64,000 nucleotides of DNA. Origin: Viridothelium virens. Lineage: Eukaryota; Ascomycota; Dothideomycetes; Trypetheliales; Trypetheliaceae. Each line of letters opens with the position of its first letter. The stretch's first letter is position 1. Location: the NCBI GenBank assembly GCA_010094025.1, contig ML991857.1:1-64000 (forward strand), written 5' to 3'. The translations under genes were made by a program, and so were the position numbers. Under the pieces are notes generated by a model that did not search any database, was not told the DNA's origin, and saw nothing but the letters and a program-made list of their open reading frames with translations. This document shows, in pieces, positions 7,184-62,383 of this stretch.

Positions 7184-9608
7184 ATGGGGAAGTGTAAGGA
7201 CCCTGCGTGCCTGCACTACTTGAACAACCACTAATTTTATTTTTATTTAGGGAGATATGGTGTCATTCTTGACGCGGGCTCATCTGTATGTTCATTGCAA
7301 AACAGTCGCTTTTTTTTCTCTTGATTTTCCAGACTGACAGCCTTTCAGGGGACTCGGTTACATATCTACCGATGGCTCAACAACGCTCGAGCCCGACAAG
7401 ATGCCGGCGCAGAGGACCTTCACTCCCTACCGCGCATAGAAACAAAGAAGAAATGGATCAAAAAGTCTAAGCCAGGTACAAAGTGCATCCGAGGAGCAAA
7501 TCGAATGCGACAATGCTAACGCGATCCCTCTTGTAGGTATCTCAACCTTCGGCGATAAGGCAGCTTTGGTTGGCAAAGAACACCTGGCTCCTCTTCTCGC
7601 ACATGCAGTCGAGCACATTCCCGAACAGGAGGTGGAAAATACGCCAATCTTTCTTCTTGCCACAGCTGGCATGCGACTACTACCAGAATCACAGCAGAAA
7701 GCCGTACTGCAAAGTATATGCGCATATACCCGTGCTACCACCAATTTCATCCTACCGGATTGCGACCTACATATTCAGGTGATTCCCGGTGATACCGAAG
7801 GTCTTTATGGTTGGATCGCAGCGAATTACCTTCTCGGAGGATTCGATCAGCCTGACTCTCATGACCATGGAAAAGATCACCACACATACGGATTTTTAGA
7901 TATGGGAGGAGCATCGGCACAGATTGCCTTTGCCCCGAATCAAACGGAAACGGAAAAGCACGCCGAGGACCTGAAGCTCCTAAGAATGCGGACAATAGAC
8001 GGTGCGGCATCTGAATACAAGGTCTTCACAACCACCTGGCTTGGATTTGGTGCAAATCAGGCCAGGGAAAGATATGTAAAAGAACTGGAAGACGCAAGCC
8101 CAGACGCTCAGGAACTGCCGGATCCTTGCCTTCCTGCAGGACTGAGGGTAAAGAAGAATGGCGATGTCATTGAGCCTGGATCTGCGGAGGACGAAGGAGT
8201 GCGATCACCTTTGATCGGTACAGGGCAATGGGAGGAATGTCTGAGGAGGACCTATCCTCTGCTAGAAAAGGACGTCCCATGTCCCAACGAACCTTGTCTA
8301 GTCAACGGCGCTCACGTACCAACAATCGATTTCGATGTTAATCACTTCGTCGGCGTCTCCGAGTATTGGCATACGACGCACGAGATTTTTGAGATGGACA
8401 AAGCAGACAAGGCCTATGATCTTCATACCTATCAAAATCGAGTGCTGGACTTTTGCAGTAAAGATTGGACAGCCATCGAGAGGGGTATATCCAAGCAAAG
8501 CTGGGGCAAGAAGGTCGATGAATCTACGGCTGCGCATGCCTGCTTCAAAGCGTCCTGGCTGATAAATATGCTGCACAATGGAATCGGTATTCCTCGCCTT
8601 GGTCTCGAAGACGTTCAACATTCTGGCGTCAATGGGACCAAGGAGGTTATCGACAAGGCGAAAGATAAAGGTTTCCTTGATCCTTTTCAACCTATTAACA
8701 AGATTCATGGCACAGAAGTATCATGGACTTTGGGCAAGATGGTTCTCTACGCCGCGTCGCAAATCCCACCAAATACCTCAACATCTTCTGGCTCCCAGAC
8801 TCTTGACGCTTCTAATGCTGTTGGCTTTGGTACAAATACGCGCGCTGGTGTCGCAACTGCTTTCCAATTCTCGGGTGGCAACCCTCTCAATCTTCCCAAT
8901 GACCTTACCGACAACTATGATGGTCCAGCTGGAGACGATGATGGCGACTGGCTTGACACGCTTTTCCACTCTAACTCTTCCCGCAGAATCCCCGGCTTCA
9001 TCTTCTTCATGCTCATCCTTTGCCTCATTGTTTTCCTTCTTTGTGGTCGCGATCGCCGCACATCTTTCTGGCGAAAGATCATCCCCAAGCGCTTCAGACG
9101 GACCGCCACACGCCCTGTCCGACGAAGTGGCACATTCTCGAAACGGCGGAGAGGACTGGCTAGTAAGCTTTTTCCAGGCAGCGGTAGTCCCAGCTACGAG
9201 CGCGTTCTTGAGAACGGAGAGGAAATGGAAGATCTCCGTCTCTCGCCTCTCCCACCTGAGGACTTCGAGAACTTCAGCGACGATAGTGAGAGTAGTAAAG
9301 CTGCTCGAACTTCTGGCTTGGCTACGCCTCAAATTCAAACAAAAGCAACGCCAGGCACGGCGCAGATGTACTCCGATGGATTCAGTCCTCTTGCTGGGCC
9401 CGCCAGCGGCCCTGTCCCTGCTGGCATGACTCCCAGACTTGGCTTGGGACTGAGCCAGAACGCGTTCGAAAAGAGCGGGCTGAGTAGTCGATCAGAGAGT
9501 AAGGAGAAGCTTACACTGGCGCCGAATACATTCAGGGTTAGTCGCCCCGGAAGTCCGACGAAGTTGCGGAGCCCAGGGATACTGCCTGTGAAGGAGGTCG
9601 TGGATTGA
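7184..9608 (+). CDS. YND1: Golgi apyrase / nucleoside diphosphatase, GDA1-CD39 family (Ynd1-like)
   Basis: Exons 7184-7193, 7251-7285, 7349-7475 and 7537-9608 give 747 residues. The family hydrolyses NDPs or NTPs in the Golgi lumen, turning GDP and UDP left by glycosyltransferases into monophosphates that drive nucleotide-sugar exchange. Apyrase motifs are seen in order: DAGSSGTRL near residue 10, ATAGMRLL, LLGGF and FLDMGGASAQIAF. One membrane helix (IPGFIFFMLILCL...) lies near residues 542-562, followed by a basic then serine-rich cytosolic tail of about 185 residues, as in Ynd1 and unlike Gda1. The first exon has only 10 nt (ATG GGG AAG T) and the second 35 nt, yet all four join in frame to read MGKWRYGVILDAGSSG. 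Any use by the UDP-sugar genes 20 kb away is inference. Confidence 0.92.
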
Positions 9609-14746: not shown

Positions 14747-16024
14747 ATGAAGTTCCTTTTTGTTATAAGTTTGTTTCTTACCTCGCTCACACTTGCATCT
14801 GCGGCTCCGTCAAAGCCGGCTGCAGGGCTGCATCAGTGGTCGAAGAGACAGACTAATACTGTCTCGAAGCCGGATGGGCGGCTTTTTAATATCAATGGAA
14901 CGACCCAATATTTTGCAGGTAAGGTGAAGTTAGAATGTCTGAAGAGCACCAGCTAACTCGAACCAGGTACCAATGCCTGGTGGCTCAGCTACCTAACTTC
15001 AGATCAAGATGTTGACACCGTCATGTCCGAAATTGCGGCTGTTCGTTTCTCCCTCCCCCTCTGATCTCCGCAGTCCGCCTCACCACTAACACCATATCTC
15101 TAGACCCAATTGAAAGTCGTCCGCGTCTGGGCCTTTGGCTCCGTAAACTCCATCCCCCAAGCCGGCACGGTCTACTTCCAGATCCTCAACTCCACCGGCT
15201 CCTACCTCAACACCGGCGCGGACGGCCTCGCCCGCCTCGACGCCGTCGTCGCCAGCGCCGAAACCCACGGCATCCAGCTCGTGCTCCCCTTCACGAACAA
15301 CTGGAGCGACCTCGGCGGCATCCCATCGTACAACGCCGCCTTCGGCGACAACGCCACCTCGTGGTACACGTCTGCGCCGTCGCAAGCCGCCTACCGGTCG
15401 TACATCGAGGCGATCGTGAACCGCTACAAGAACAGCAGCGCCATCTTCGCGTGGGAGCTGTGCAACGAGCCGCGCTGCCAGGGCTGCGCCACCAGCGTCA
15501 TCACGAACTGGGCGGCGAACACGAGCAGCTACATCAAGTCGCTCGATGGCGCGCACATGGTGACGCTTGGGGACGAGGGCTGGTTTGCGCCAGCCGACGG
15601 GATCGGCGACGGGAGCTATGCGTATGGTGGCGATGTGGGCGTTGACTTTACGGCGAACCTTAAGATCGATACCCTGGATTATGGCACGTTTCATCTGTAT
15701 CCGGATAGCTGGGGGTATAATTATACGTGGGGTAGCACTTGGATCGAGGAGCATGACCAGGTGGGGAGTCAGATCGGGAAGCCGGTCGTGTTGGAGGAGT
15801 ATGGGACGCCGTTTCCGCATAATCATACGGGCACGGAGGCGCCGTGGCAGACGACGGTGGTGAATGCGACGCAGGTGGCGTATGATAGCTTCTGGCAGTT
15901 TGCGACGATCAACTTGACGTCCGGGAGTCAGTATGATGTGAATAGTATTTGGTACAATGATACCGAGTACACGGTGTTGGCGAGGCAGCATGCGGCAGAT
16001 ATGCTGGCAAAGAAGGTGGCGTGA
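14747..16024 (+). CDS. Secreted endo-beta-1,4-mannanase, GH5 (subfamily 7-like)
   Basis: Exons 14747-14918, 14967-15040 and 15104-16024 encode 388 residues. The enzyme cuts beta-1,4-mannan backbones in plant walls outside the cell. A signal peptide ([19 protein letters not shown]) is followed by a dibasic processing-like site (SKRQT) and the mature start. Family marks are [25 protein letters not shown], acid/base Glu204 in WELCNEPRC, and the nucleophile motif LEEYG (Glu313-314, the second probably catalytic). HLYPDSW and the C-terminal FWQFA also fit. There is no carbohydrate-binding module. The third exon is GC-rich with strong codon bias, which produces a long antisense frame. The second donor is GTTCGT, weaker than usual, but the frame and family alignment support it. 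Confidence 0.92.
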
Positions 16025-19486: not shown

Positions 19487-20165
19487 AGATGGGGGATAGT
19501 TGAAGGCACCACTAAGTTCAATCTCCTCTGAGCGAAGAAGGTGAAGGTGCGGGTTTCTAAGTTAAAGTACCTAAGGTATCCAAGGGTGACTAGGAGAGCT
19601 AGCGAGCTTATACAATCACTATTTTCGGTTAGTTTGGGGCTGCCGCTACTTAGGCCAAAACCTCCGAGCACCGAAATTCAACTCTACCACCCAATTTACT
19701 CCGTAGTGGAGATTCTACAGTATCACTCTCCTAATATAGATATCTTTCTTCCGCCATTACTACTCATCAAGCAAGAACGGAGTCATCTCAATAGTAAGCT
19801 CTTCTAGGAAATCGCTGCTTTCTATCTTTACTTTAGTCGATCTCATATTCGGCTGTGCTTTCGGCCCCTGATCTACACGTATCTTTACATAATATGCGTC
19901 CGAGCGCAGCAGACAGAATAGCTGAAATCCTTGGTCATGCTTATTGGTTCAACACAACCCAGCCGTAACCCTTTCGGGTCGCAGATGCTGTGCGATCCGC
20001 AAGGCTGAATCTAAACAAAGATTTAAAATGAGAGAAACACGCCCCTACCCTTTGGACCCCAATTTCTTAACCACCGCTGGGAGAATCTTGCCAGCTGGAG
20101 TGGCTGGCCCTACTGAGAGCTTCCGTGATCATTTCCTCCTTGCCACAGGCCTTCGACGCTAAAAA
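19487..20165. promoter_or_regulatory. Divergent upstream region of RNase H-like ORF and receptor
   Basis: About 680 bp without a firm gene. A short plus-strand frame ends at 20162, three bases before the receptor ATG, and is not part of it. Confidence 0.4.
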
Positions 20166-23100
20166 ATGAATCTTGAGCAATCTCATGGCGAGATGGAAAG
20201 TAGGATAGTGGATTTCGAGACGTCAAATTGGCAGAAGGCCAAAGCTATGTTCGTGGAGGCACGCCGTGACAAGGACGAGGAAGTAAAACTAGGCCAGTTC
20301 CTTCAGGGATGGGTATCTGTGCAAGACGCCAAAGATATGTGCATTGCGACTAAGAATCAGGCAAGCAAGGAGTATGCGCCTATGCTTGGTAGCATACTCA
20401 ACAAAATTGACATGGCCAGCAAAGTCGGAGATTTGGCCATGAAATCCGCTCCAGAAAGCATTGGTCTCGCCTGGATGGGTGTCAAGCTATGCCTCCATTC
20501 TGTAATGGATGACTTTGCGACTTGTCAATCTTTCGGCGTTGCCTGTTCCGATATAATCGGAATCTTAATCTCCTGCGCATGCTATGGAAGGATGTTTGGA
20601 ATACCCAAAGGTCCGAAGAGTTTTCAAGAAATACATTCACAGATCGTTGATCAAATCCCCCAAATCTATTGCAATATTTTGGAGGTATCCTTTTCGGTCA
20701 AAAAATATATGAGCCATAACAAACTTGTTCGCACCGGGAAATACTTCTTCAGATCTGCCAACGAAAAGTTCAAAGACAAGATCCAGGCGCTGCATGAGAA
20801 TGAGGCCAAAATGAGCGACTTCGCTCATACGGCCTCCGAGCAAATGCAGGAGTATTATTCCACAAAAATGCTGGCCAATCAAAGCCGATCTTTTGAGGCT
20901 CAAGATGCAATCGCAAGGGACTTGCAAGTCCTAAAAGAAGAGTTGTCTTCATACGAACACATACGGAAGAGTGATGAGATATCAAATGCCGAGCTACTGG
21001 AACATTTGAGAGGCATTAATACGAAAACCCCGCTAGCTGCTGCCAAGGAGCAGTGCCAGAATTATCGAAAGCAGTTACGCATGGATGCAGTTCAAAGCAA
21101 TATCTTGCAAGCGAAAATCAATGAGAGAAGCCCACCAGAAACCTGTACATGGATATTTCGACATAGAGATTATGAAGAATGGCGTGATGCACCAAGTAAC
21201 AACATTCTTTGGGTCTCCGGCCGTGGTGGTTGTGGCAAATCAATCCTTGTTTCGGCCATCATTGACACCCTTAGGACTGAAGTCGAGGAAGGCAGAAACT
21301 TGCTTCATTATTTCTATTGTGATGCTGGTGACGAATCATCTAAGAAGACCGAAAAAATCCACAAGCATCTGCTGTCCCAGCTACTTGAGATGGTGGAAAA
21401 GACAGACGCGGTTGGCAAGATTGATGAGGCAAATAAAGTCACTAACAAGTTTCTGCAGAAGAGAACCGATACAAAACAAGCCAAACGGATCAGCTCCAAG
21501 GACTCAATCTCTTTTACAGAAGCATATCAAGACCTTGCTCGGATCCTAGGCCAACCCAAAATTTACTTGGTCATTGACGCGCTTGACGAATGCATTGACC
21601 TGGAAAAAGAAGGCTTAATTCAATCCCTGAAAGATATCATTAACTATGAGATTTTGGGAGTTCGTCTCAAATTTCTCATCTGCAGTCGGCCGGAACCGGA
21701 GATTGAAAAGGCTTTGAACGATTACTCGTCCATTGATGTCGAAGGAAATAACAGCCTAGATATTGAGAGCAATGTAAAAGTTGAACTCAGTCAATTATCT
21801 GGTTGGACCGAGGAGGAACGTGACCTTGCCTGCAAAGAAGTCACGCGGAAGGCAGGCGGCTACTTCCGTTGTGTTGCCCTGCTGATTCAGTTTCTTAGAA
21901 AGCCTTGGCAAAGACCATTGAGCCACAGGCTTTCTGAACTTCCTGAGGGATTGAATAACAATTATAGAGAAATCCTCCAAAAGACAGACAAAGCATATAT
22001 CGAACTACTTCGAATATGCATGACGTGGATCACTCTTGCAGAGGACGAAATCAAAGTGGGAGAGATCATCGATATTTATAGCCGGACCTTCTGCGAGCTC
22101 GAAGATGGCTCAAAGATTCCGGAGAATGATGGACCGCACCAGATTGATCAAATTAGAAGCGCCGGCAGCTCTTTTGTGCGCGTGATACCTGACACGAACA
22201 TCATTAAATTGCGACACTATACAGTCAAAGAGTTTTTTCTAGGTTCTCGGAAATCACAGACGATAGGAATAAGCGGAACTAACACCCTATCGAGTGAGCC
22301 AGCCCACTCGGAGGCAGACCAACCTTTTGAAATTTCAGAGAAACATGGTCACATAGAAATTGCAATAACTATCCTAGACCATATATCATCGAAGCTGTTT
22401 CGGGAGACCTATATGAAGTCATACTTGCCAATAATCGGGAATGAGTCTGACGTCCCGAGCGCACCTGACGGAACAGTGAATAGCAGTATGATGGACGAAA
22501 CAGACTCACACGCTGTCGGCATTGTTGCGTTGCCAAATGAGGACCAAGCCGTGAGCCAGGAAACGGATGATTCAAAGATGACCTCAACCACTTCCGATGG
22601 GAGCGTCTCTTCCCATTCCGATGAAACTGAAAGGGAAAACAGCCAAGCACGACTGAACGGTGTTTCGGATGAAAACCTCGATTCCGAGCAACCCAACACA
22701 AACGGCGAAAACGTAGAAGTCTCTACAGACAACCAAGTTCAAGATGCTGATGCGCGTGACGGGTTGGACTCTGACTCTGACGTTGATAGCGACGACCTGG
22801 AAAATAAGCCTGTATTTGACAGCTTTGGTGAAAATGTTCGCATCTTCAGATATGAGCCTCACTATCTAGGTTACCACCTTCAGAAGATTGAAGAGTTGTG
22901 GGGTTCTTCTGCTCATGAGGATGCTTTATGGAAGAAGTTTAGCGAGAGCCTCATGGATTTCATGCGACCAGATTCCGAAGCTTTCCTTACGTGGGTTAAT
23001 TATCTCGCAGAGCGAGGTCAGATGATTGTAAAGTCTGAACGTGGTACCATTACACCCATTCACGTAGCTTGCGGGTACGGCCTTCTTTCTGTCCTCAAAC

Positions 23101-25156
23101 GCCTGATTGACAGAGGTGACGACACCCACAAGTTCACTACGGCAGGCTGGAATGCCTTACATTTCGCTGCTGACGCACCTTCGTGTACACAAAAAACCGA
23201 AATGTTGAAGATTCTGCTGAGAGCTGGCCATGATCCTAACTCCATGAAAGATTGTCTTTTCTCCCCATTCCATCTCCTGTTACTGTGTGGCGCAACGGCG
23301 GAGGAAGTGCGTCTCTTTATTGAGAACGGTGCTGATTGCGACCTACGAAGCTCCGACAAGCGAACTGCCCTTCAAATTGCTTCTCGGTCGAGCGACGACC
23401 TTGATGTCCTAAAGACAGTTTTGGAAGGCGTCCATGACATTAATGTTGGTGACCAATCAGGACAGACCGCCTTACATTTGCTTATGTATCGGGGTAAAGT
23501 GCCTCCAGAGTTTCTCTCTGCATTTTTGGAACGAGGTGCAAATGTCAATGCAGAAGATGAGCATTCGAAAATGCCTCTAGCAATTGCTGCTTCTTGGGGA
23601 CAGGCGGAGACCGTTGAAAGACTTGTAGAAGCTGGCGCTATGATCGACGATGATGATGTCGGCGGCATGACCGCCTTGCATTTTGCAGCACTGAATGGTC
23701 AAAGCTCCAATATTCAGAGTTTACTCAAGAAAGAAGCTGATGCTGAACGGACTGATTTCAAAGGCAATACCGCACTATTCCATGCGTTCGCACATGGGGA
23801 CCTACTCACATGCGAAACTCTTGTGAACTGGTACAAGGCAAACAATCCAAGCATTTTGAAAAGAGCAAATAAGAAGGGAAAGACTCCCTTGAGAAAGGCT
23901 GCTGCTGCTGGCTACACCGGCGCCATAGAAGTCCTCCTGAACACCACAAGCGACGTCGGCATCAACGAAGCAGATAATCGCCTGGGGCATACCCCACTAC
24001 ATGCTGCGGCACGAAGGGGTCACAGTGCCATCGTGCAAAAATTGATTGATTGTGAGGCTGACACTGTCATTAAGGATAGACAAGGTAAGACGGCTTTGCA
24101 GGTCGCTTGCTTAGCATGGAATGAAGATGATATGGAAGGTGACTATGAAGAGGTGCTGCTATCTTTAATGTTAGAGGACCCCGAAACAGCAAGTCAGGAT
24201 CCTATTTTGCTTCACGTCGCAGCGAGTAAAGGCAGTTTGGATATCCTGAGGAGACTGCATGAATTCAATGTCGACTTCAACCGGCAAGACGAGCATGGAT
24301 GGACTGCTTTAGAGTTTGCACGGCAATATGATCAAAAACAAACGATCTATTTTCTTGAGGAGAAGGGAGCCTCCGTCGGCAAGCAACCTAGCAAATGGGA
24401 AATTACGAAACCCCAATATCTACGTGTTTCAGACGACGGTCTTCAAATCAGCTACATTCACAAAGATGAAAAAGGTGAGCAGTATGTTCCATGCTTTGGT
24501 GATGCGGAGTGACTAAATCTGGACAGATCGAGCTTGTGCTCTAACAGACCATCCTCTACCGGCAGGAACGCGGCGATATTATTTTGAAGTGGAGTTGCTT
24601 CGCCTAGCCGGTGAGAAGGGATTTCCTGAGGTCGCCATCGGGCTGTCTGGGAAGCGCAATGCAGTCAAATTATTTAGGTGGCTTCCAGGTTGGCGACGTG
24701 GGGGTCCCACTAGCTGGGGCTACCATGGTGATGACGGTGCTATCGAGTGCTCGACGGAGGATTCAGAGTGGCGTAAAAACGAGAGTAAAAGATACAGGTA
24801 CGGCGACACGGTGGGCTGTGGCTTCGATCGTGACAGACGTGCCATTTTCTTTACTCGGAATGGAGTCAGACTAAGTAAGTCGAAGACCACTCGGTGCCGG
24901 CCCAAAGCTTACAGCTAATCAACATCTAGTGAATGCGGCAAGCACGAATGTCACTGGTCGATTGTACCCGGTGGTGGGTATTAGTGACTCTATTACGTTG
25001 AGAACGAATTTTGGTGCGAGCGAATTCAAGTGGAAGCCGGGCAATATGCGCGATTTTGACGTAGATATCGTCACTGAAGAGGCTCCGGCTACTGACGGAA
25101 AAGAGGAGCAGCAGGCCGCGGCAGGTGCAGAGAGAGGAAACGTTGATCCTAACTGA
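20166..25156 (+). CDS. STAND/NLR-like receptor: N-terminal fungal domain, NACHT, ankyrin repeats, SPRY
   Basis: Exons 20166-24474, 24548-24874 and 24930-25156 encode 1,620 residues. Residues 1-300 form a helical domain like the fungal STAND N-termini (Goodbye-like), with KSAPESIGLAWMGVKLCL. The NACHT NTPase follows: Walker A GRGGCGKS at 352-359 and Walker B IYLVIDALDE at 466-475, then an RPEPEIE sensor-like segment. Residues 760-890 are acidic and disordered. About twelve ankyrin repeats run from roughly 960 to 1,430 (TPIHVACGYG, TALHLL, TPLHAAARRGH). The two small 3' exons add a SPRY domain (RRYYFEVELL, VAIGLS, WGYHGDDG, FFTRNGVRL, GRLYPVVGI) at about 1,437-1,610. Fungal NLR-like proteins sense ligands through the C-terminal repeats and trigger oligomerisation, often in nonself recognition. 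The ligand and effector are unknown. Confidence 0.88.
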
Positions 25157-26917: not shown

Positions 26918-28537
26918 TCATAAGGATTTTCCAATATGTTCCACGCGGAGACCCAGTTTTTGGAGCTCAACAGCGTCAGTGATGTTCCGACCGTCGAACA
27001 CATAGCGCGGTTGTCGCATCGTCTTCGCTACCCGCTCCCAGTCCATTCTCTTCTGTATGGCTGCAGGCATCACAGATGGGTGGTAGACGGCATGAGCCCG
27101 ATGGACATCTTCCTTGGTGGCCCCATTCACCACGGCAGGTTCCACTGGCTGCCTGTTGCTAAATTCGTCCCATTCGGTCAGGATAACAACCGCGTTGACG
27201 TCATGGCAGGCTTGGTAGGCAGTCTCACAGATTGTGATGTTTTCCTCAGTACCCTCGCCGCCATTGCAGACAAGATCGGCCCAAATCTGGTGTTTCGGGA
27301 CCTTTGGGTCGTATAGGGTGATCTGAGCCCCTTCATCAAGCAAGGCTTGGCAAATGGAAATTGCGGGTGATTCGCGTGTGTCGCCCGTGTTCTTCTTGAA
27401 GGCAAAACCAAGGATGGCAATTTTTTTATTTGTCAAGGTAGAGTAAAGGCAGCGAACAATGCGTTGAGCAAATCGGTCCTTCTGATATTCATTCAGTTCG
27501 AGGACGGATGTCCAGTAAGCTGCGATCTCAGGCAGGTGTAGGGTCTCGGCAATGTACGCCAGGCTTAAGATGTCCTTTTTGAAACACGAACCACCAAAGC
27601 CTACAGAGGCGTTTAACATCTTAGGACCAATCCGAAAATCGAGACCCACTGCATTTGACACCTCTTCGATATTGGCACCAGTCGCTTCGCATATCGCGCT
27701 CAATGAGTTGACGTTCGTGATTCGCTGCCCAAGCATTGCATTGGCAGCGAGTTTGGCCAGTTCAGAAGAGAGGAGATGTGTAGTGATGATCTTGCTTTGG
27801 GGTACCCAGGTGCTGTAAAGGTTTCTCAGTGTGTCACAGGCTGATATGCCCGAGGGACTAGACAGCGAGCCGATAAGGATTCGATCAGGCAGGAGTAAGT
27901 CCTTCAGAGCAGTACCTTCAGCAAGGAACTCAGGGTTAGACAGCACTTCGAAATGCACTCCAGGATTCCCTATAGCGTCCAAGATCTCTCGTATTAATCC
28001 TGCTGTCCCCAAAGGCACGGTGCTTTTTTCGACGATGATCTTGTCGGTTTCTGCTACCTCAGCAATCGTCCGTATAGCCGACTCCAGAAAGCCTGTCTCA
28101 GATGCTCTGCCTACCCCTCGCCCACTTGTCTTCGTTGGAGTATTGACAGCGACAAAGATCAAGTCGGCGGCTCCAATGGCGGCTTCTATATCGGTCGTGA
28201 AAAACAGGTTTGGTCGACGCGAAGCAGAGCCATCACGAGCTTCTTGAACGGTCTCAAGTAGACCAGGCTCGAAGATAGGTAATCGGTTGGACTTCCACGC
28301 GCTGATACGACGCTCATTGATGTCCGTAACAGTGACACCGACGCTTGGGTTCTTGCTCGCAATCACAGCTGAGGTTGGTCCGCCCTACAGACTCATTAGC
28401 TGGATCAAGCTTTGGCGGGCCCAAAAAGGCGCACACAAAGCGCGGGATTGACTCACAACGTAGCCTGCGCCAATACAGCAGACATTTCTGACTTTCCACA
28501 ATGGCGAAACGGAATCGCGATGTCCATTGAGCTGCAT
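26918..28537 (-). CDS. UDP-glucose 6-dehydrogenase
   Basis: Exons 28457-28537 and 26918-28384 (minus) give 515 residues. The enzyme oxidises UDP-glucose to UDP-glucuronate with two NAD+ in the cytosol. The Rossmann glycine loop GAGYVGGPTSA spans the intron: exon 1 ends with GAGYV and exon 2 starts with GGPTSA. Further marks are VNTPTK, EKSTVPLGTA, NPEFLAEGTA, the catalytic FGGSCFKKD with Cys294, and GFAFKKNTGDTRESPA. All three domains and the catalytic residues are present and the length is normal. The start at 28537 gives MQLNGHRDSVSPLW; an upstream exon cannot be excluded. It is divergent from the transporter-glycosyltransferase fusion across 1.4 kb. UDP-glucuronate, or UDP-xylose made from it, is a plausible donor for those neighbours. 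Confidence 0.93.
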
Positions 28538-29942: not shown

Positions 29943-32808
29943 ATGGGTCTCAACGAGCCGCCAAGTGAAGTCTCTGGCATCGACGACAGAATGTTGCCCA
30001 CCACGGCAAGCAACAATGATGAAGTGGTCGGGTTTGACGAAAGTCTCCTTGAGCACAAGCAAGTGCAAGCCGAAGTCGAGAACACCGCTCCCATGACCTC
30101 TGATGTTGATGATGCACAAGAGTACGAGATTTCTACACGAAAGAAGTACAGCTACTTGGCAGCGTACTTTGTGGCAAATCTTTCCCTTACCCTCCTCAAT
30201 AAAGTCATTCTACAGAAGGTACGAATGCGCTTTCTGTATAATCCTCAGACTGACCAGAATCTAGTTTCCTTTCCCTTGGCTTCTTACTACAGTACACGCA
30301 ACCGCGGTTTCGATTGGCTGCTACACCATGCTCAAATGCGGCGTCTTCAAAACGACAAAACTCCATGGACGTGAACATCTGATCTTGCTTGCCTTCTCGG
30401 TCCTGTTTACCGTCAATATCGCTATGTCAAATATATCTCTGTAGGGTTCTCGAAAGGCATCTATTGATTACTTAGCTGATCGCTGAGCAGTGCTCTGGTG
30501 TCTGTGCCATTCCACCAGGTCATGCGGTCAATCTGTCCAGTAATTACCGTGTTTATCTATCGGACATTCTTCCATCGAGGTTACGCTACGCAAACATACC
30601 TTTCTTTGCTCGTCGTCATTCTTGGAGTTGCCTTGACGACTTACGGTGACTACTATTTTACTTTGCTGGGCTTCACACTAACGTTGACGGGCGTCGTCCT
30701 TGCCTCGATGAAGACTATCGTCACCAATCAGCTACTGACAGGCAATCTTTCGCTCCCAGTGTTTGAGCTTTTGTTGCGCATGTCACCTCTTGCTGCTCTA
30801 CAATCTCTATTGATTGCTTTACTCACGGGGGAGGTCTCGAAAGCCCGGCCTTTCCTGAACGCGAAAGATATCAGCCCAACTTTTGGCTTAGTCTTCGCAG
30901 TGAATGCCATCCTAGCATTAGTCTTAAATATTGTATCTTTCCAGGCCAACAAGGTGGCGGGCGCGCTGACGATGGCTGTTTGCGGAAATCTGAAGCAGAT
31001 GCTCTCGGTCCTCCTCGGGGTCGTACTATTCAACCTTGAAGTCTCTCTCTTGAATGGAGCGGGAATGATCACATCACTAGCAGGTGCTGCTTGGTACAGC
31101 AAGGCTGAGCTTGAGGGGAAGAGTAGCAATTTACTATCCCGTGACGGCTGCGATATCGAGCCGAAGTCGTGGACGCAGCTAAGTAACGACATTGTTCGAA
31201 AGTGGGTCGGTAGTAGCAAGATTTACAGTGCTCGCTTCATCTTGGGCTCTATCTACCTCATAGTACTGATTGCCATCATGACATGGACGATGATGACGGT
31301 AAGTGTAGCGGGAACTTCTCCCTCTTGCTTTTCACCTTTGCTGATGCCCATAGAATACCTCTGAATCCATAACTGTTCAGCATTCAACCTCCTCGCGCGC
31401 ACCTGAATTGCATCTTGTAGTGCCTGCGACAAGCAGCAATTTCAATTTATGCCAATTACTGTTTTCTACCGCAGTTCTCGGCTATCCCACACCAACGATC
31501 ATCAACTGGGGTGCGAACAGTGACATTCCACATACAGAGAAAGTATTTCCTATTTTGGCTCAGCTGGAGCAATGGCAAGAGAATGACATCGTGCTCATAG
31601 TCGATGGCTATGATGTGTGGTTTCAACTAGCTCCCGAAGTCTTGCTTCAACGATATTTTGATGCGAACGAGGCTGCCAACGAAAGACTGAGACAAGAATT
31701 CGGTCCCCACCTCGTGCAGCGGCACAATATCCAGCAAACTATTGTTTTCGCAGCTGATAAGCTTTGCTGGCCAGCAAAACCTCGGCGGCCAGCTTGCTGG
31801 GCGGTCCTCGATTCGACTCTAGCCAGCGACGCATTTGGTCCCGAAACTGATCGAGGTGACATGATGCATGACAGACCCAGATGGTTGAACTCCGGAACAG
31901 TCATCGGTCCTGTGCGAGATCTCAAAACCATGTTCAAGGCCTTCACCAAGGATCTCGACATGCCTATCGAGCCTGAGTACCATGGATCGGACCAGATGTA
32001 CCTGGGAGATCTGCAAGGTCGGCAAGACTTTAGTCGCTTTGCAGCTGCTCAACCAGACTATCCTACTTATGGGAATAATCGTATCTGGTCTGAGAGAGAA
32101 TTGCCGCGCATAGAGGCCAGCAGTGACCCTGAGCTTCACATCGGTCTCGACTATGAATCTACCTTGTTCTTCGGCAACGCCGGATATCAAGCTCACTTAT
32201 CCTGGCTGGTACATGGGACGCAACAGCCCCAGGACTACTCCGTCGCTTCAACTCCCAATGGCTCTCGCTCAATAGACTTTCCTGCTGATTTACTTCAATC
32301 GCAACCGCCAAAAGACTTTTTGGGCGATATCATCACCAATGCGGATTTGGAAGCTGCACCATCGTCTTCCTGGCTCGATGTACCGCTTGGCACAAATGTG
32401 ATCACTGGGCAAATCTTTGCTTCGATCCATTTCACCGGCTCAAAAGAACTTCGCGAGCTTTGGTGGAGTCGCATGTGGTTCTTTCCCAGAGCAAAAGAAC
32501 GCCTCCGATTCGCTTCGCTTAAAGGTAGTCAGACAGTCACGGGGCCTATAGGTGGTCAGCAGTTCTGGTGGCCACTGAAGCCAAAAGGTGCGCAAGTAGG
32601 CAGTGCCGTGAGCGATAACGATGTTGTTCTGCCGTGGAATGAGATTTGTAAGGAGCATGAACCTGCCTTGTTTGGTGAGACGCCTTTGGAAGTCAACCTT
32701 CCATTAGAATTCCTGAAACCTGTTGATGCTCCTACGACACTCAATGCTACCAATCACACCATTGAAGAGAATCTTCAGCGTCGAAAAATATCAAACTTAC
32801 GAGCTTGA
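29943..32808 (+). CDS. Nucleotide-sugar transporter fused to a DGYD-type glycosyltransferase
   Basis: Exons 29943-30218, 30265-30440, 30491-31298 and 31354-32808 form one frame of 904 residues. Residues about 70-370 are a TPT/DUF250 nucleotide-sugar transporter (NLSLTLLNKVIL, FPFPWLLTTVHA, SVPFHQVMRS, KQMLSVLLGV, GAAWYSKAEL). A hydrophilic basic linker and one further helix (ARFILGSIYLIVLIAIM) follow at about 400-420. Residues 421-904 are a glycosyltransferase with a DxD-like DGYD at 504-507, PRWLNSGTVIGP, HGSDQ and MWFFPRAKERL. This part is paralogous to the next gene and resembles the PLOD-type glycosyltransferase fold. The linker plus helix looks like the tail and signal anchor of a type II enzyme, so the catalytic part would face the lumen. 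No start codon exists for a separate enzyme upstream of its anchor. The sugar and acceptor are unknown. Confidence 0.85.
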
Positions 32809-34096: not shown

Positions 34097-35835
34097 ATGG
34101 ACCGTATTCGCTCTTTATCCTCTCGAAAGCGCTTGTGGTTCATTCGGTCGCTCATCCTGTCCTTCGTAACTCTAGTCTTCCTGGCGACCTGGGTATGTTT
34201 CTTCCCACTTCGTGCTTTGGAATCACATCCTTTCCTGTGGTCAAATTGCGACTCATATCCTTCAAGCCCCTGGAATATTCCTCTATGTCTTTGCTGACGA
34301 ATTTGATAGAGTCTATACGGATCAAGCCGGTGGTCAATACCTCGTACGACCAGCACGTCGTCATCTTTTCTCCATTTGCTTATTCCGGCGAACCAAGCGA
34401 ATACCAATCTCTGTAAGACTCTTCTGAGTGCTGCCATTGCTGGGTATTCGACACCAGTCTTGATCAACTGGGAAACGGAATTCAATAGCACTGAATTGGT
34501 TGATGGGGGCTCACATTTGGCCAAGATCTCGGGTGTATTAGAATGGTTGGATACACTACGTCCCGAACGGGACGACGATCTTGTGCTGATGGTGGATGGG
34601 TATGACGTTTGGTTTCAGTTGCGACCCGAAACCTTGATCAGACGCTATAATCAGATCAACCAGGAGGCAGCAGCTCGAACAAAACAGCGATTAGGGCCTG
34701 CATTCAAGAAGGAGCGCCTGCAGCAGAGTGTCATTTTCTCTGCTCAGAAGAGATGTTTTCCTTGGTCGGATGACGCAATTCCCTGCTATGCGGTACCAGA
34801 GTCAGCATTACCTCCAGATGTCTACGGGCCTGATACCGACATCCAGATAGACCCTGATTGGCCCTACCAAACGATAAGACCACGGTGGATCAATTCAGGT
34901 ATGTACCAGAGCCTCGCTCGTGAATGAGAGCTAGAGTGAATACTGACTGTGAAGGTATCATTATTGGTCCTGTTGCCCAAATGCGATCCATGTTCCACCG
35001 CACCCTCCAAAAACTTCATGAGGACCCCAATTTCGGCAGTGACCAGCGTCTCTTCAATTCTGTATTCGGAGAGCAGGAATATCAACGAGAAGTCATGCGC
35101 CAACGCTATCATTCACCACTTTCCCATCTCCATTCCTCCAACTCTTTCCTCTCACGCACAGATGTTGCCCAAATGCCACACTACTCGTCGTCCCCGCTCG
35201 ACTTTGGCATCTCTCTCGACTACTTCTCATCTCTTGGACATGCCACTGTTTTTGCCGAGACGGACTCGGCTTGGTTCCTACATTCCGACAAGACCTTGCG
35301 AGGCAGCGAACCCTTGCAACTTCCCGATCCACACCCCCTTGGTGCTTCGCACATTCAGTCACTGTCAGATGATATCAAACAGTCACTGCCTCCATTCGCG
35401 GGAACCGGTAATCAGAAGGCTTGGGAAGATGTCCCACTATATACAAATCTATACACTGGGGTGACGCCAGCAATCATTCATAACAACGCGCATCGCTATG
35501 GGTTGAAGAGCGTCAGGGAGACAGCGTGGGACCAGATGTGGTTCTTCCCCCGCGCCCGCGAAATGCTAGACTTAGCCATTCAGAAAGGCACTCAGCCTCT
35601 TGCGGTGACGAAGGATTTGCGAATGGATCCGGCGAAGAACGAGAACCGTGTGAGGAGGTGGTGGAGTGCGGTAGAATTGAAGGGAGGTGCGTGGAGTGGG
35701 AAGGAGAGAGAGGGGGGGAGATGGTTGCGATTTGGCGACATGTGCCCCGATGCGGAGGCATTGTTTAGGGATCAGAAAGGCGAGTGGGTAGATCCGATAC
35801 AGGACGTGGCGTGGGCGTTGAAGGATAGTCCTTAG
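34097..35835 (+). CDS. Golgi type II glycosyltransferase, DGYD (PLOD-like) family
   Basis: Exons 34097-34192, 34310-34898 and 34955-35835 encode 521 residues. The N-terminus is a classical type II signal anchor: basic tail RKRLWFIRS, then a helix to about residue 31. The lumenal domain matches the second half of the upstream fusion step by step: LLIPANQANTNLC, YSTPVLINWE, VDGYDVWFQLRPE with Asp128 and Asp131, PRWINSGIIIGP, FGSDQRLFN, and MWFFPRAREMLDLA. Both conserved Asp residues of DGYD could bind the metal and UDP-sugar. The first intron follows the anchor exon directly, the same place where the fusion gene has its junction intron. The likely site is the Golgi; donor and acceptor are not known. 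Confidence 0.85.
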
Positions 35836-36240: not shown

Positions 36241-37134
36241 GTGTCCAAAAATCATCTAGGGCTGAGCACCCATAAGATCTACTTAATTTTACTACATGTC
36301 CCAGTTTTAGGAACTATTCGTTTTTTATTAAGGGAAGGGACCATGGAAGCGCAGCACGTGACCCACACCACCTACCTACGTCCCGCGTCTTCACCTTCAT
36401 GTTCACCTTGCCAGCTTCTTCATCTTCAGACATCAGACAGAGTGAATTTAGACTACCTTACTACTTTTGTTTCACTATGGGACCCGCCAACACTTTTGTA
36501 CGCCCATTGAAAACATATTCTTACTTTTACGTGACCATTGTAGGGATCCTAAAACTGAGCTCCTGTTAAAGTCTTGGATACCTCAGATCTTTGGCCTCTG
36601 GTGTAGTAGAGTAAGCTACTATAAGCCATCTGCCTCTATCTGAAAGTCTTGGTAAATTCAAGACAAGTTCATCGACTTGTAGGCCAAGTCAAGCTGAAAG
36701 ATTTGAAGGCGGTGGCTTATGGTTTGCTCCGCCACAACTCCCCAACAAACCGCAACAAGCTAAGGCCAAAGTAAACATCACTCCCACATGCATTACGCTG
36801 TATATTGGAGACAATTCCGATTCCGATGTTTGGTTCAATCGGGCAGTGAGTGCAGAAGATGCAGAGAGGAGAACCCATAGGTTTACGCTGTTCTCCGCCA
36901 GAGCCTCACAGCCGCTCAAGAGTGTTACAGGGCTGATTCTATAGATAATTCAGCGCATGGTGACGTCTAACTATCAGGCTGCATCCGACTCAGCCTCGTC
37001 GATAGCAGAGTACTAATAGAGTTCCCTTGACGGATACTGCTTCTCTGGCAGCGGAGAGGATTACTAGCTTTAGGCAAACGTTAGTATCTCCCTTCTTATT
37101 AGCTAAACAGCATCCAGAACTAGCCATGTCGGGC
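36241..37134. other. Intergenic upstream of HET gene
   Basis: About 890 bp. It has GGGCTGAGCACCCAT near 36258, similar to 17930, and no supportable gene. The last part is the HET promoter. Confidence 0.4.
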
Positions 37135-38328
37135 ATGCGATTGCTCAATGTCCATAGCCTTCAAGTTGAAGACTTCACCAAGCGGCCTGCACCACAGTAT
37201 GTCATTCTATCGCACCGATGGGTAGATAACGAGCCCAAGTTTCAAGACTTTGAAGAGATGCATTCACTTCAAGCGACCACCACCAACACACAACGTCTGG
37301 CGGCCTTACGGAATTGCAACAACGGCAACTTTGGGGCGAATGATGGCTTCGCAAAAGTAGCGTGGGCATGCAAAATGGTACGAGAGCGGCAGCACGGTGT
37401 ACAATATCTATGGGCTGATACATGCTGTATCAACAAGAACAATCTTGAGGACCCAAAGGAGACGAGTCGGGCGATCAACTCGATGTTCGACTGGTACCAC
37501 AACGCCGTCGAGTGTTATGCTTACCTTGGAGACACGTCTGGGAAGAATGCTATGCGCAACAGTGTCTGGTTTAAAAGGGGATGGACCCTCCAAGAACTTC
37601 TTGCGCCGTCACGTTTGCAATTTTTTGATCAGCGGTGGACGGATCTGGGTACTCGAAGCGATAATATCGATGCGATTTGGGAAGCAACCTCGATCGACCA
37701 AAAATATCTCAATGGTGATGAGCAGTTCCGAAGTGCCTGCATCGCCACAAAGATGAGCTGGGCGGCGAATCGGACTACTGCCTTGGCAGATGATAGAGCG
37801 TACTGCATGCTTGGCCTGTTTGGTGTCCATATAGAAGCTCCGTATGGTGAAGGCATGAAAGCTTTCCTACGCTTGCAAGAGGAGCTAGTCAACCGGACAA
37901 ACGACGAGTCAATCTTCGCGTGGTACGACGCTTCGATCGTACAAAATGGACTCCTGGCTCCATCTCCGAAGTGCTTTGAGGGCTGCGGACAGTTGACGGT
38001 CAATTCCGCGAAATTTCGGCCACGGAAAAGCTATAGCGCCATTAAAGAGGGCATCGAATTTTGGCTGCCATCTTTCTTGCCAGACCATGCGAACGGTGCC
38101 GACTGGAACGATCTCATAGCCAATAAGCGAAAGTCATTCGATCTTAGGCTCAACTGCTGGAGACCAGATGGAAGAACGGTTGTGATCAAACTTCGGAAGG
38201 AAAAGGGGAAGTGGCGCCGAACGCAGTGTGATCAAGAGTTCACCATCAATAAGGCTCCACGCAGTAGCGAGAGTATTTTCGGAATAGGGACAAAGGCGAG
38301 GCCAGCTCAAATTTCACACAATGTCTGA
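37135..38328 (+). CDS. HET-domain (heterokaryon incompatibility) protein
   Basis: An intronless gene for 397 residues from MRLLNVHSLQ; the ATG at 37126 would add three residues. The HET domain shows its three blocks: YVILSHRW, then YLWADTCCINKNN...AINSMFDWYHNAVECYAYLGD, then SVWFKRGWTLQELLAPSRLQFFD. The C-terminal half contains the DRAYCMLGLFGVHIEAPYGEG segment usual for this group and ends with a beta-rich region. There are no WD, ankyrin or NACHT parts. HET domains trigger a cell-death reaction when different strains fuse and are thought to be TIR-like. This gene lies between two 80 bp direct repeats and beside the UDP-sugar island. The partner is unknown. Confidence 0.88.
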   Translation: MRLLNVHSLQVEDFTKRPAPQYVILSHRWVDNEPKFQDFEEMHSLQATTTNTQRLAALRNCNNGNFGANDGFAKVAWACKMVRERQHGVQYLWADTCCINKNNLEDPKETSRAINSMFDWYHNAVECYAYLGDTSGKNAMRNSVWFKRGWTLQELLAPSRLQFFDQRWTDLGTRSDNIDAIWEATSIDQKYLNGDEQFRSACIATKMSWAANRTTALADDRAYCMLGLFGVHIEAPYGEGMKAFLRLQEELVNRTNDESIFAWYDASIVQNGLLAPSPKCFEGCGQLTVNSAKFRPRKSYSAIKEGIEFWLPSFLPDHANGADWNDLIANKRKSFDLRLNCWRPDGRTVVIKLRKEKGKWRRTQCDQEFTINKAPRSSESIFGIGTKARPAQISHNV

Positions 38329-39133: not shown

Positions 39134-40270
39134 ATGCTTGGACGCTTTCTCTTCCGTACGCTGCCGTTTCTTGCAGCTATGAGCGGTGCAGCTACCGCCA
39201 TAGTTCACGGGCATGACCTCTCGTCGGTAACACAGATGGAACAAGACCAAGGAGCCAACTGGTACACTACATCAGGACAGAAGTCGACGATCGAAAGCAT
39301 TCTGGGTGATGGCGGTATGGATAGCGTGCGGCTCCGGTATTATTGAGAAAGCCTTCGAATGCGATACCACTAACTTTTATTGACGCCGAATCATAGGCTC
39401 TGGACAGCAGATGAGTATGGACTCAGTTATACGCTCGCGCTGGCTCAGCGCTTCTACAAAGAAGGCTACAAAATCTACTTGGATATGCACTTCTCGGACA
39501 ATTGGGCAGATCCCAGCAAGCAGGCGATACCCGCGGCTTGGTCTTCCTCGTCCATTACTACACTTGCGAGCCAACTACAAACTTATGTTCGACAGACTCT
39601 GACGTCTTTTCACAACGGCGGGGTCCAGGTCGAGATCCTTGCGCTTGGGAATGAGATCCGCAACGGCATGCTTTGGCCTCTCGGTCAGATCAGCGGCAGC
39701 TCCTACACCAATTTCGCGATTCTTTGGGCTGCTGCTCGCGCAGGAGTCAACGATGCTGTGAGCGCCGGTGTACCGAAGCCACAAGTCATGATTCACCTTG
39801 ACGATGGATGGAATGAGTCGCTCATGGCATCCTGGTTCAAGGGTGTCTTTGCTACCGGCAAAGTCAAGACGTCCGATGTCGATGTGTTCGGCTTCTCCTT
39901 CTACCCGTTTTACGGCACTAGCGCCACGATCTCGAATCTCCAGGCTAGCTTGAACAATCTCGCGAGCACGTACGGTAAGCCGATGTATGTTGCGGAGACT
40001 GACTGGCCTGTTGAGTGCTCGGGCGTTAGTCTGAGCGCCAACTATCCCACAAGTGCGCAGGGACAGACTGAGTGGGTGCAGGCGATCGAAAGTACTCTCA
40101 CGTCTGTACCCAATGGACTTGGGGCTGGATTATTCTACTGGGAGCCGGGTTTTCTTAATGATTCTAGCTTGGGCAGTAGTTGTACTTCCGCGCTCCTATT
40201 CGATGTTGACTGGTCCGGTTGGCCGACTACTAAAGCTACCGCTCTATCTTCGGTCAACATGTATAAATGA
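39134..40270 (+). CDS. Secreted arabinogalactan endo-beta-1,4-galactanase, GH53
   Basis: Exons 39134-39336 and 39397-40270 give 358 residues. The enzyme cuts beta-1,4-galactan side chains of pectin outside the cell. A signal peptide (MLGRFLFRTLPFLAAMSGAATA) leads into HGHDLSSVTQMEQ, MDSVRLRLW and YLDMHFSDNWADPSKQ. The acid/base is Glu154 in ALGNEIRNGMLWP and the nucleophile Glu268 in YVAETDWP. Both are in family position and length is normal. The intron is 60 nt and phase 2. The HET gene is upstream and the class 3 lipase is downstream on the same strand, without signs of a shared cluster. Confidence 0.93.
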
Positions 40271-60942: not shown

Positions 60943-62383
60943 ATGGATTTCAATCCACGCATGAGCGTCGCGCGGGCGTCGCAGAACAACAACCAGCGCA
61001 AGAGGGAGGAGGAGAGTGATGCATTCATGACATTGGTACTGTTGCTCGTCTACAGCATGCGATGACCGCCTACTGATTATCTTCTCACAGCCCGATCGAG
61101 AAATTGCCGGATGTATCAGCGACATCGGAATCAACTTCACAGTCGCAGATCTTCAAAAGCCAAACGCGCAGCAAATACAGAAGGTCTTTGAATGGTTCGC
61201 AGAACTCCTGATGAACACGACACGCGAAGTGGTGGCACCGGCAATGAAGGCAGCAGCAGAAGACATGTGTGGCCCGGACGCAGAGCGCATTTTTACATCA
61301 GACACGCGAGACCTGATGGGCTTTTTCGTGACATTGCGAAAACTCCTCATTGAGTGCGGTATCAACGACTTCACCTTTCAAGACTTGTACAAACCTACGC
61401 ATCCGCGGCTTGTCAAAATATTCAGCTACATAATCAACTTCATCCGATTTCGCGAGAGCCAGACCGGTGTCATTGATGAACATTTCAACAAATCCGAGAA
61501 GACCAAACTCCAAATCGAGCACCTATACGCAGAAAACCAAGAGAAACAAGAGCACCTCGACTCCCTCCAACACAACCGCAAAGCCACCGAACAAGCTCTC
61601 CAAGAAAAAGAAAAGCGCACCTCTGAACTTAAACAACGCCTGCTCGACCTCAAAAAGGGCCAAGAGCGCGTCGCCGAGAAGCTCGAGCTTGCCCGCCAGG
61701 AACAACACCGCCTCAAATCCGTCCTCGAAGACAAGACCACCACCGCCATGACCCTCCGCCACGACGCCGCCAAACTCCGACCCTACACGCAGCAATCGCC
61801 GTCCGCACTTGAATCCGCCCTGCGCGACCTCAGCAACGCGCTGACCACCGACCGGGAGTCGATCGAGAAGCTCGAGCGACGGGCACGCGCTTTGCAGACT
61901 TCGTCGGACACGTTCGGGGTGGTGAAAGGCGACATCGACGGGCTGATACGGCTGCTGACGGAGCTCAGCGCCGACCTGGCGAAGGAGGAAGCCGAGCTCG
62001 CGACGGCGGGGAAGCGTCGGGATGCGCTGTCGGAGCGGTCGAATAACGTGCGCGATGTGGAGCGGCAGGAGCGGCTGCTGCAGAAGCAGTTGGGCAATAT
62101 TACGGCGCGGACGGAGAAGTTGCGGAAGGGGAGTGAGGAGAGGGCGGAGGAGGCGAGGAGGAGGATGGAGGAGCTGAAGGGTGTGCATCGGAGGTTGGCG
62201 GAGGAGAGGGGGGAGAGGGGCAGGGAGATGGAGAGGAGGAGGGTGAGGATTGAGCAGACGGAGAAGAAGATGGCGGATTTGAAGGAGAATATTGAGGGGG
62301 AGGTGGCGAGTGCGAGGGAGCAGTATTTGAAGATGGAAAGTCATATTAAGCTCTACATTACTGAGATGGAGCAGAGCATCTAA
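60943..62383 (+). CDS. NUF2: Kinetochore protein Nuf2 (Ndc80 complex)
   Basis: Exons 60943-61035 and 61091-62383 give 461 residues, the usual Nuf2 size. Nuf2 pairs with Ndc80 to bind microtubules at kinetochores. The N-terminal calponin-homology domain is visible: REIAGCISDIGINFTVADLQKPNAQQIQKVFEWFAELLM, LMGFFVTLRKLLIECGINDFTFQDLYKPTHPRLVKIFSYIINFIRFRE. From about residue 165 a nearly unbroken coiled coil runs to the end, ending KLYITEMEQSI. The 55 nt intron lies just before the CH domain. The coiled-coil codons towards the 3' end are G-rich and create a long antisense frame. Confidence 0.93.

Follow-up and report, generated by a model that had tools for sequence, protein, structure and literature searches.

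The window analysed here is a stretch of 64,000 nucleotides from Viridothelium virens, a fungus that has been compared among lichenized species (PMC8809443, in the cited portion). On its plus strand, positions 29943 to 32808 hold a gene whose four exons, joined by GT/AG splicing, encode 904 residues with a single terminal stop (Table 1), which confirms an earlier note on this DNA in its claim of a stop-free frame running from a transporter into a glycosyltransferase. GT/AG introns were enumerated and one terminal stop was required; many versions remain open under this rule (878 to 907 residues), and the 904-residue version was picked because its KVILQK-FPFPWLL and NISL-ALVSV junctions match relatives. 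All three introns run from GT to AG and have, by eye, a CTGAC or CTGAT branch-like motif ahead of the acceptor. Retention of intron 3 would bring in an in-frame TGA 21 codons on (31362-31364), and the product would be 441 residues long, with helix 11 present and the enzyme absent.

Table 1. Genes and gene parts at the fusion locus (window coordinates) and in the unfused cluster on contig C4 of the same genome (contig coordinates)
Feature	Position	Strand	Remarks
Fusion gene, exon 1	29943..30218	+	N-terminal tail and transporter helix 1, residues 1-92
Fusion gene, intron 1	30219..30264	+	46 nt; missing in C4 paralogue
Fusion gene, exon 2	30265..30440	+	Transporter, residues 93-150 and part of 151
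Fusion gene, intron 2	30441..30490	+	50 nt; at NISL/A, aligns with an intron in the separate C4 transporter
Fusion gene, exon 3	30491..31298	+	Remainder of TPT domain to ~354, linker ~355-395, extra membrane helix ~396-419
Fusion gene, intron 3	31299..31353	+	55 nt, phase 0, directly behind anchor helix
Fusion gene, exon 4	31354..32808	+	LH3-like GT-A glycosyltransferase domain, residues 421-904
Nucleotide-sugar (probably UDP-glucose) 6-dehydrogenase	26918..28384	-	Divergent from fusion gene; short upstream first exon likely
Second GT_PLOD-type enzyme (GT-B)	34097..35835	+	Exons 34097-34192, 34310-34898, 34955-35835; 521 aa (chosen model)
C4 GT_PLOD-like enzyme	380028-381380	-	
C4 dehydrogenase	~382487-384124	-	ORF L014:3988-5625
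C4 transporter	385922-387064		Public model
C4 GT-A-type counterpart enzyme			Own ATG at 388336

The N-terminal half of the fusion is probably a nucleotide-sugar transporter, predicted to carry activated sugar into the secretory pathway. The Pfam TPT domain (PF03151) is matched at residues 71-354 with 105 bits (cut-off 30), covering positions 6-291 of the 291 in the profile, and this half keeps 84 of the 87 columns that are conserved at ≥95% in 42 other rows. The cut-off of TIGR00817 (Tpt phosphate/PEP translocator; 317.9) is missed both by exon 3 alone (54.8 bits) and by the whole C4 paralogue (89.3 bits). As far as the cited portions of the reports describe them, NST1 and NST2 of Magnaporthe (PMC10013753) and Uut1 of Cryptococcus (PMC5790919), members of the NST-TPT superfamily, have the TPT domain in common with the fusion, a likeness at the domain level; compared with these fungal transporters, the fusion alone continues into an eleventh helix and an enzyme. 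In a tree of 45 transporter rows it forms an unplaced branch, with the longest end branch of all (1.47, against a median of 0.46).

The C-terminal half matches Pfam GT_PLOD (PF25342) at residues 487-561, with 30.6 bits in the full chain and 33.7 bits for exon 4 (cut-off 27), a match that spans only positions 59-114 or 59-98 of the 246 in the profile. On raw genome frames PF25342 marked a single place, at 34400-34660 in the tandem enzyme, and did not find exon 4, so the paralogues were located by protein query instead. A search of the PDB with the single enzyme sequence returned only matches with E above 0.8; searching by profile retrieved LH3 at E 0.00052, and the test of the enzyme domain for the LH3 glycosyltransferase fold was positive. 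K483, D504, D507, N599, S600 and D633 of the fusion are the counterparts of the LH3 donor-site residues K89, DxxD, N165, S166 and D191. In LH3, D112/D115 and H253 bind metal, and H779 of the fusion may be the counterpart of H253. This half keeps 32 of 33 conserved columns, and the counts for both halves lie near the medians of the other rows. Unlike PLOD/LH3 proteins, the fusion has no Pfam match to a lysyl hydroxylase (dioxygenase) domain within its 904 residues. The fungal GT_PLOD relatives compared have an anchor helix of their own, whereas in the fusion that helix is joined to the transporter. In a tree of 44 enzyme rows the fused domain clusters with 16 others (support 97/93), on an end branch of 1.48 (median 0.58) that three rows exceed. 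For this fungal branch of the PLOD glycosyltransferase family no described function was found in the literature searched.

Contig C4 holds a cluster with the same kinds of genes as the window, in which transporter and enzyme are separate and lie 1.27 kb apart; from the transporter stop to the enzyme start, each of the three forward frames of this spacer is interrupted by stops. Every residue of two public V. virens models, P0012 (584 aa) and P0166 (342 aa), falls within exact 12-residue matches to C4, and P0166, with its single TPT domain, is the C4 transporter paralogue. The C4 transporter ends in YSKVELDAKAAKQNTQTAQEGSS; at that place the fusion reads YSKAELEGKSSNLL...SARFILGSIYLIVLIAIMTWTMMT and then continues. 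Exon 1 of the C4 enzyme comprises 33 residues (tail and anchor) and ends at a phase-0 intron; intron 3 of the fusion is likewise of phase 0 and directly behind the extra helix, and the tandem enzyme, with an ATG and an anchor of its own, shows the same layout in the chosen model. The transporter intron at NISL/A is common to the fusion and C4, and intron 1 of the fusion and the second C4 intron are unshared. Given the missing spacer and the matching intron behind the anchor, the tail of the transporter thus runs directly into the enzyme anchor, which became the last helix of the chain. This bears out the earlier note, which had taken that helix for the former signal anchor of the enzyme: its place is that of the anchor in the separate C4 enzyme, and in both a phase-0 intron follows. 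C4 also has an enzyme of the GT-B subgroup (clade support 100/99, with long branches), so that the window and C4 clusters agree in all four kinds of genes.

A recent duplication of the C4 cluster is not supported, since the C4 transporter clusters with its Bathelium and Bogoriella counterparts (100/100; all three genera, Viridothelium included, are Trypetheliaceae) and the fusion stands on a long branch without a place in the tree. The fusion may thus be an old paralogue or a copy that evolved fast, or it may have been transferred from an unsampled fungus. That the contig of the window (C87) is a contaminant is unlikely, because Nuf2 (61031-62383) has its sole genome match on it.

Between the two domains, the fusion has no in-frame Met between residues 343 and 414, and its last strong hydropathy segment lies at 400-418 (best 19-residue value in the bridge 2.19). 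AlphaFold, run on exon 3 alone, places the last helix of the transporter at ~337-368 and the extra helix at ~396-419, with a pLDDT of 76.7 overall and of 51-64 in blocks across the bridge and the last helix; as this fold excludes the first transporter helices (pTM 0.63), it says little on the transporter as a whole. An amphipathic helix may precede the membrane helix at ~378-391, in a part of the bridge where the confidence of the model is low. The codon score of the bridge (0.080) compares with a mean of 0.095 for coding sequence (587 overlapping segments) and of -0.044 for non-coding sequence, and 6.7% of 3852 overlapping non-coding segments reach it. By itself, the stop-free bridge has no statistical significance. 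What we judge to go beyond chance is the anatomy of the fusion: the spacer is gone, Met is missing between 343 and 414, a signal-anchor-like helix is intact and conserved residues are kept in both halves. A chance open frame was rejected on this anatomy, the codon statistics of the bridge alone being weak.

Around the extra helix there are four K/R in the 25 residues before it and one in the 25 after it. Cryptococcus Uut1, which imports UDP-GlcA, is predicted to have ten helices with cytosolic ends (PMC5790919, in the cited portion). With ten such helices and one further crossing, the catalytic domain would come to lie in the lumen, in agreement with the placement proposed earlier.

The dehydrogenase that diverges from the fusion gene belongs to the nucleotide sugar dehydrogenase subfamily TIGR03026 (299.5 bits, cut-off 189.8) and misses the UDP-glucose-specific NCBIfam equivalogs TuaD (297.1 against 700) and AglM (210.8 against 670), which are models built for bacterial and archaeal genomes; its best specific-model score, below the cut-off, is that of the UDP-glucose 6-dehydrogenase TuaD. 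Queried against the genome, it retrieves two loci only, one per cluster, in a search that may miss distant dehydrogenases. Because these only two loci sit in the two clusters, UDP-glucuronic acid is the likeliest cargo, as judged from the gene neighbours. The donor of the fused enzyme could differ from UDP-glucuronate, since LH3 uses UDP-glucose. A dehydrogenase also adjoins a glycosyltransferase in the UGD and GT1 gene pair of Eurotiomycetes and Sordariomycetes, as at the fusion locus; there the glycosyltransferase is of another family, and the cited portion of that report mentions no transporter and reports one Dothideomycete (PMC4059230).

In other fungi, the genes for the two functions were surveyed by comparing by eye the best 120 of 221 enzyme matches with the best 120 of 453 transporter matches, leaving out Hortaea and Aureobasidium, whose clusters mix many contigs. 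Transporter and enzyme lie on one contig in 10 of the 19 species named among both sets of matches listed, contigs being scored as of equal size; a long shared contig is weak evidence. Among the matches listed, sharing was seen in V. virens, Rhizodiscina lignyota, Saccharata proteae, Lecanora helva, Purpureocillium takamizusanense, Tolypocladium paradoxum, Acrodontium crateriforme, Teratosphaeriaceae CCFEE 6253, Bogoriella megaspora and Lecanosticta acicola, and no shared contig in Saxophila, Zasmidium, Dothistroma, Fulvia, Grosmannia, Polychaeton, Aulographum, Cercospora zeina and Septoria linicola. That the genes are near each other is shown only by the locus tags of Lecanora helva (004732/004733), Purpureocillium takamizusanense (009439/009440) and CCFEE 6253 (005908/005911) and by C4 itself, and it is suggested by the short contigs of Tolypocladium (76 kb) and CCFEE 6253 (35 kb). 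Seven of the ten contig-sharing enzymes among the matches listed fall within the clade of the fused domain, those of Lecanora, CCFEE 6253 and Lecanosticta falling outside it; conversely, the Grosmannia and Aulographum enzymes are inside the clade and not on a transporter contig (among the matches listed).

A TPT domain followed by GT_PLOD in one predicted protein occurs in at least five public models (P0019, P0115, P0121, P0122 and P0123), retrieved by searches that scored 8000 candidates each and from which the best 120 of 221, all 8 and the best 120 of 453 matches were taken, so that further fusions could be missed; among the matches listed in these protein searches there is no model for the V. 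virens fusion itself. No membrane-like stretch occurs in the bridge of P0115, P0121 or P0122 (best 19-residue hydropathy 0.34, -0.05 and 0.36, against 2.19 in the fusion), and P0121 and P0122 are identical over their last 430 residues. P0123 (Friedmanniomyces simplex) differs from the fusion in having no bridge and in missing the start of the enzyme; its enzyme part is closer to the GT-B of the window (43.6%) than to the fused enzyme (33.6%), so that the gene next to the transporter seems to be a GT-B one. The simplest reading of these four anchorless models is that they are merged predictions of neighbouring genes, because an enzyme without an anchor would sit in the cytosol. P0019 (Diplocarpon coronariae) has a 176-residue bridge (380-555) with an anchor (2.58, against 2.19 in the fusion) behind a long tract of low complexity; it could be a second fusion that arose independently or one more merged prediction. 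The proteome search that had been proposed as a check does yield chains with both domains, four of the five without an anchor and one with it, and the matches listed do not support the fusion as a common architecture. The view that the two functions are normally separate proved right in itself, but it has to be set beside the common contig in 10 of the 19 species listed and the five public single-chain models. A 1178-residue model of Aureobasidium pullulans, P0001, joins two GT_PLOD-type enzymes; its first part scores higher with the fused enzyme than with the GT-B (280 against 219 bits), and its second part higher with the GT-B (265 against 147 bits).

At the level of sequence the fusion of transporter and enzyme is real, and its existence as one expressed protein is probable. 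The explanation that we favour, with a probability of about 0.7, is a genuine fusion: in one of two copies of a glycan cluster, made up of dehydrogenase, transporter, GT-A and GT-B, the spacer between transporter and GT-A was lost, and with it the transporter stop and the enzyme start. The copy without the spacer would now give one spliced mRNA and one protein of ~100 kDa, with ten transporter helices, a cytosolic bridge, an eleventh helix leading into the lumen and the catalytic domain in the lumen of the ER or Golgi. UDP-glucuronic acid made by the cytosolic dehydrogenase would be imported by the transporter half, and the tethered LH3-like domain would transfer the imported sugar to a lumenal acceptor, the two activities being held at a fixed 1:1 stoichiometry in one place. 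Direct hand-over of the sugar (channelling) is possible, being allowed and not required by this explanation. Considerably more doubtful is a stronger version, in which the chain imports UDP-glucuronic acid and feeds its own transferase bypassing the lumenal pool, with intron 3 retention adding a transporter-only form that tunes the ratio of import to transfer.

The same locus could instead yield two products, the enzyme coming also or only from an internal transcript that begins near M343 (31065) and encodes a type II protein whose cytosolic tail has ~55 residues, and the transporter alone through retention of intron 3. M343 is indeed in frame and ahead of the anchor, so that it could start a separate enzyme, and retention does provide a stop; but the promoter of such an enzyme would fall within a coding exon of the transporter, only with intron 3 retained does the fused transporter gain a stop, M343 sits inside the last predicted transporter helix, and the C4 enzyme and others aligned start shortly ahead of the anchor. 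We regard this arrangement as rather unlikely. The long end branches in both trees make relaxed constraint on the fusion possible, and they would also suit a decaying copy, that is, an accident in a redundant duplicate whose protein is now useless, the intact separate pair on C4 supplying the redundancy. Against decay, 904 codons are open, 84 of 87 and 32 of 33 conserved columns are kept and the counterparts of the LH3 active-site residues are retained, and we hold it to be less probable still. The least probable reading, to which we give very little weight, is an assembly artefact in which a true spacer of ~1 kb was collapsed or lost: the assembly is a draft of 175 contigs, but the loss would have had to hit the very boundary of transporter tail and anchor, keep the frame and remove both the stop and the start.

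Physical association of a nucleotide-sugar transporter with glycosyltransferases is known from mammalian cells, where SLC35A2 forms complexes with UGT8, B4GalT1, B4GalT4 and Mgats and where, according to the cited portion of the report, the biological meaning of such association is still unclear (PMC9368800). These complexes and the genuine fusion favoured here have in common that transporter and sugar user are together in the secretory pathway; as described there, the former are separate proteins held non-covalently, whereas the fusion is covalent (PMC9368800). A literature search, mainly at the level of titles and starts of abstracts and with subscription journals mostly outside it, found no described fusion of a nucleotide-sugar transporter with a glycosyltransferase. 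By their domain matches both parts belong to known families. A natural covalent fusion and an unfused pair in one genome would make a ready-made test of flux, specificity and localisation. The fusion is also an argument that TPT and GT_PLOD genes, often linked in Pezizomycotina, have one sugar in common; the dehydrogenase next to it points to the identity of this sugar, which yields a donor hypothesis for the fungal branch of the PLOD glycosyltransferases.

Glycosyl hydrolase genes also occur in the window, GH53 at 39374-40270 and GH5 at 15104-16024 (both on the plus strand). A GDA1/CD39 nucleoside phosphatase (304.7 bits) lies at 7440-9608 on the plus strand, 20 kb from the fusion; Golgi nucleoside phosphatases convert NDP to NMP, and NMP is a usual counter-substrate of nucleotide-sugar transporters. 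The cluster itself is flanked by a 1449-residue NACHT-type/ankyrin frame (20163-24512) and by a HET-domain gene (37006-38328), both on the plus strand.
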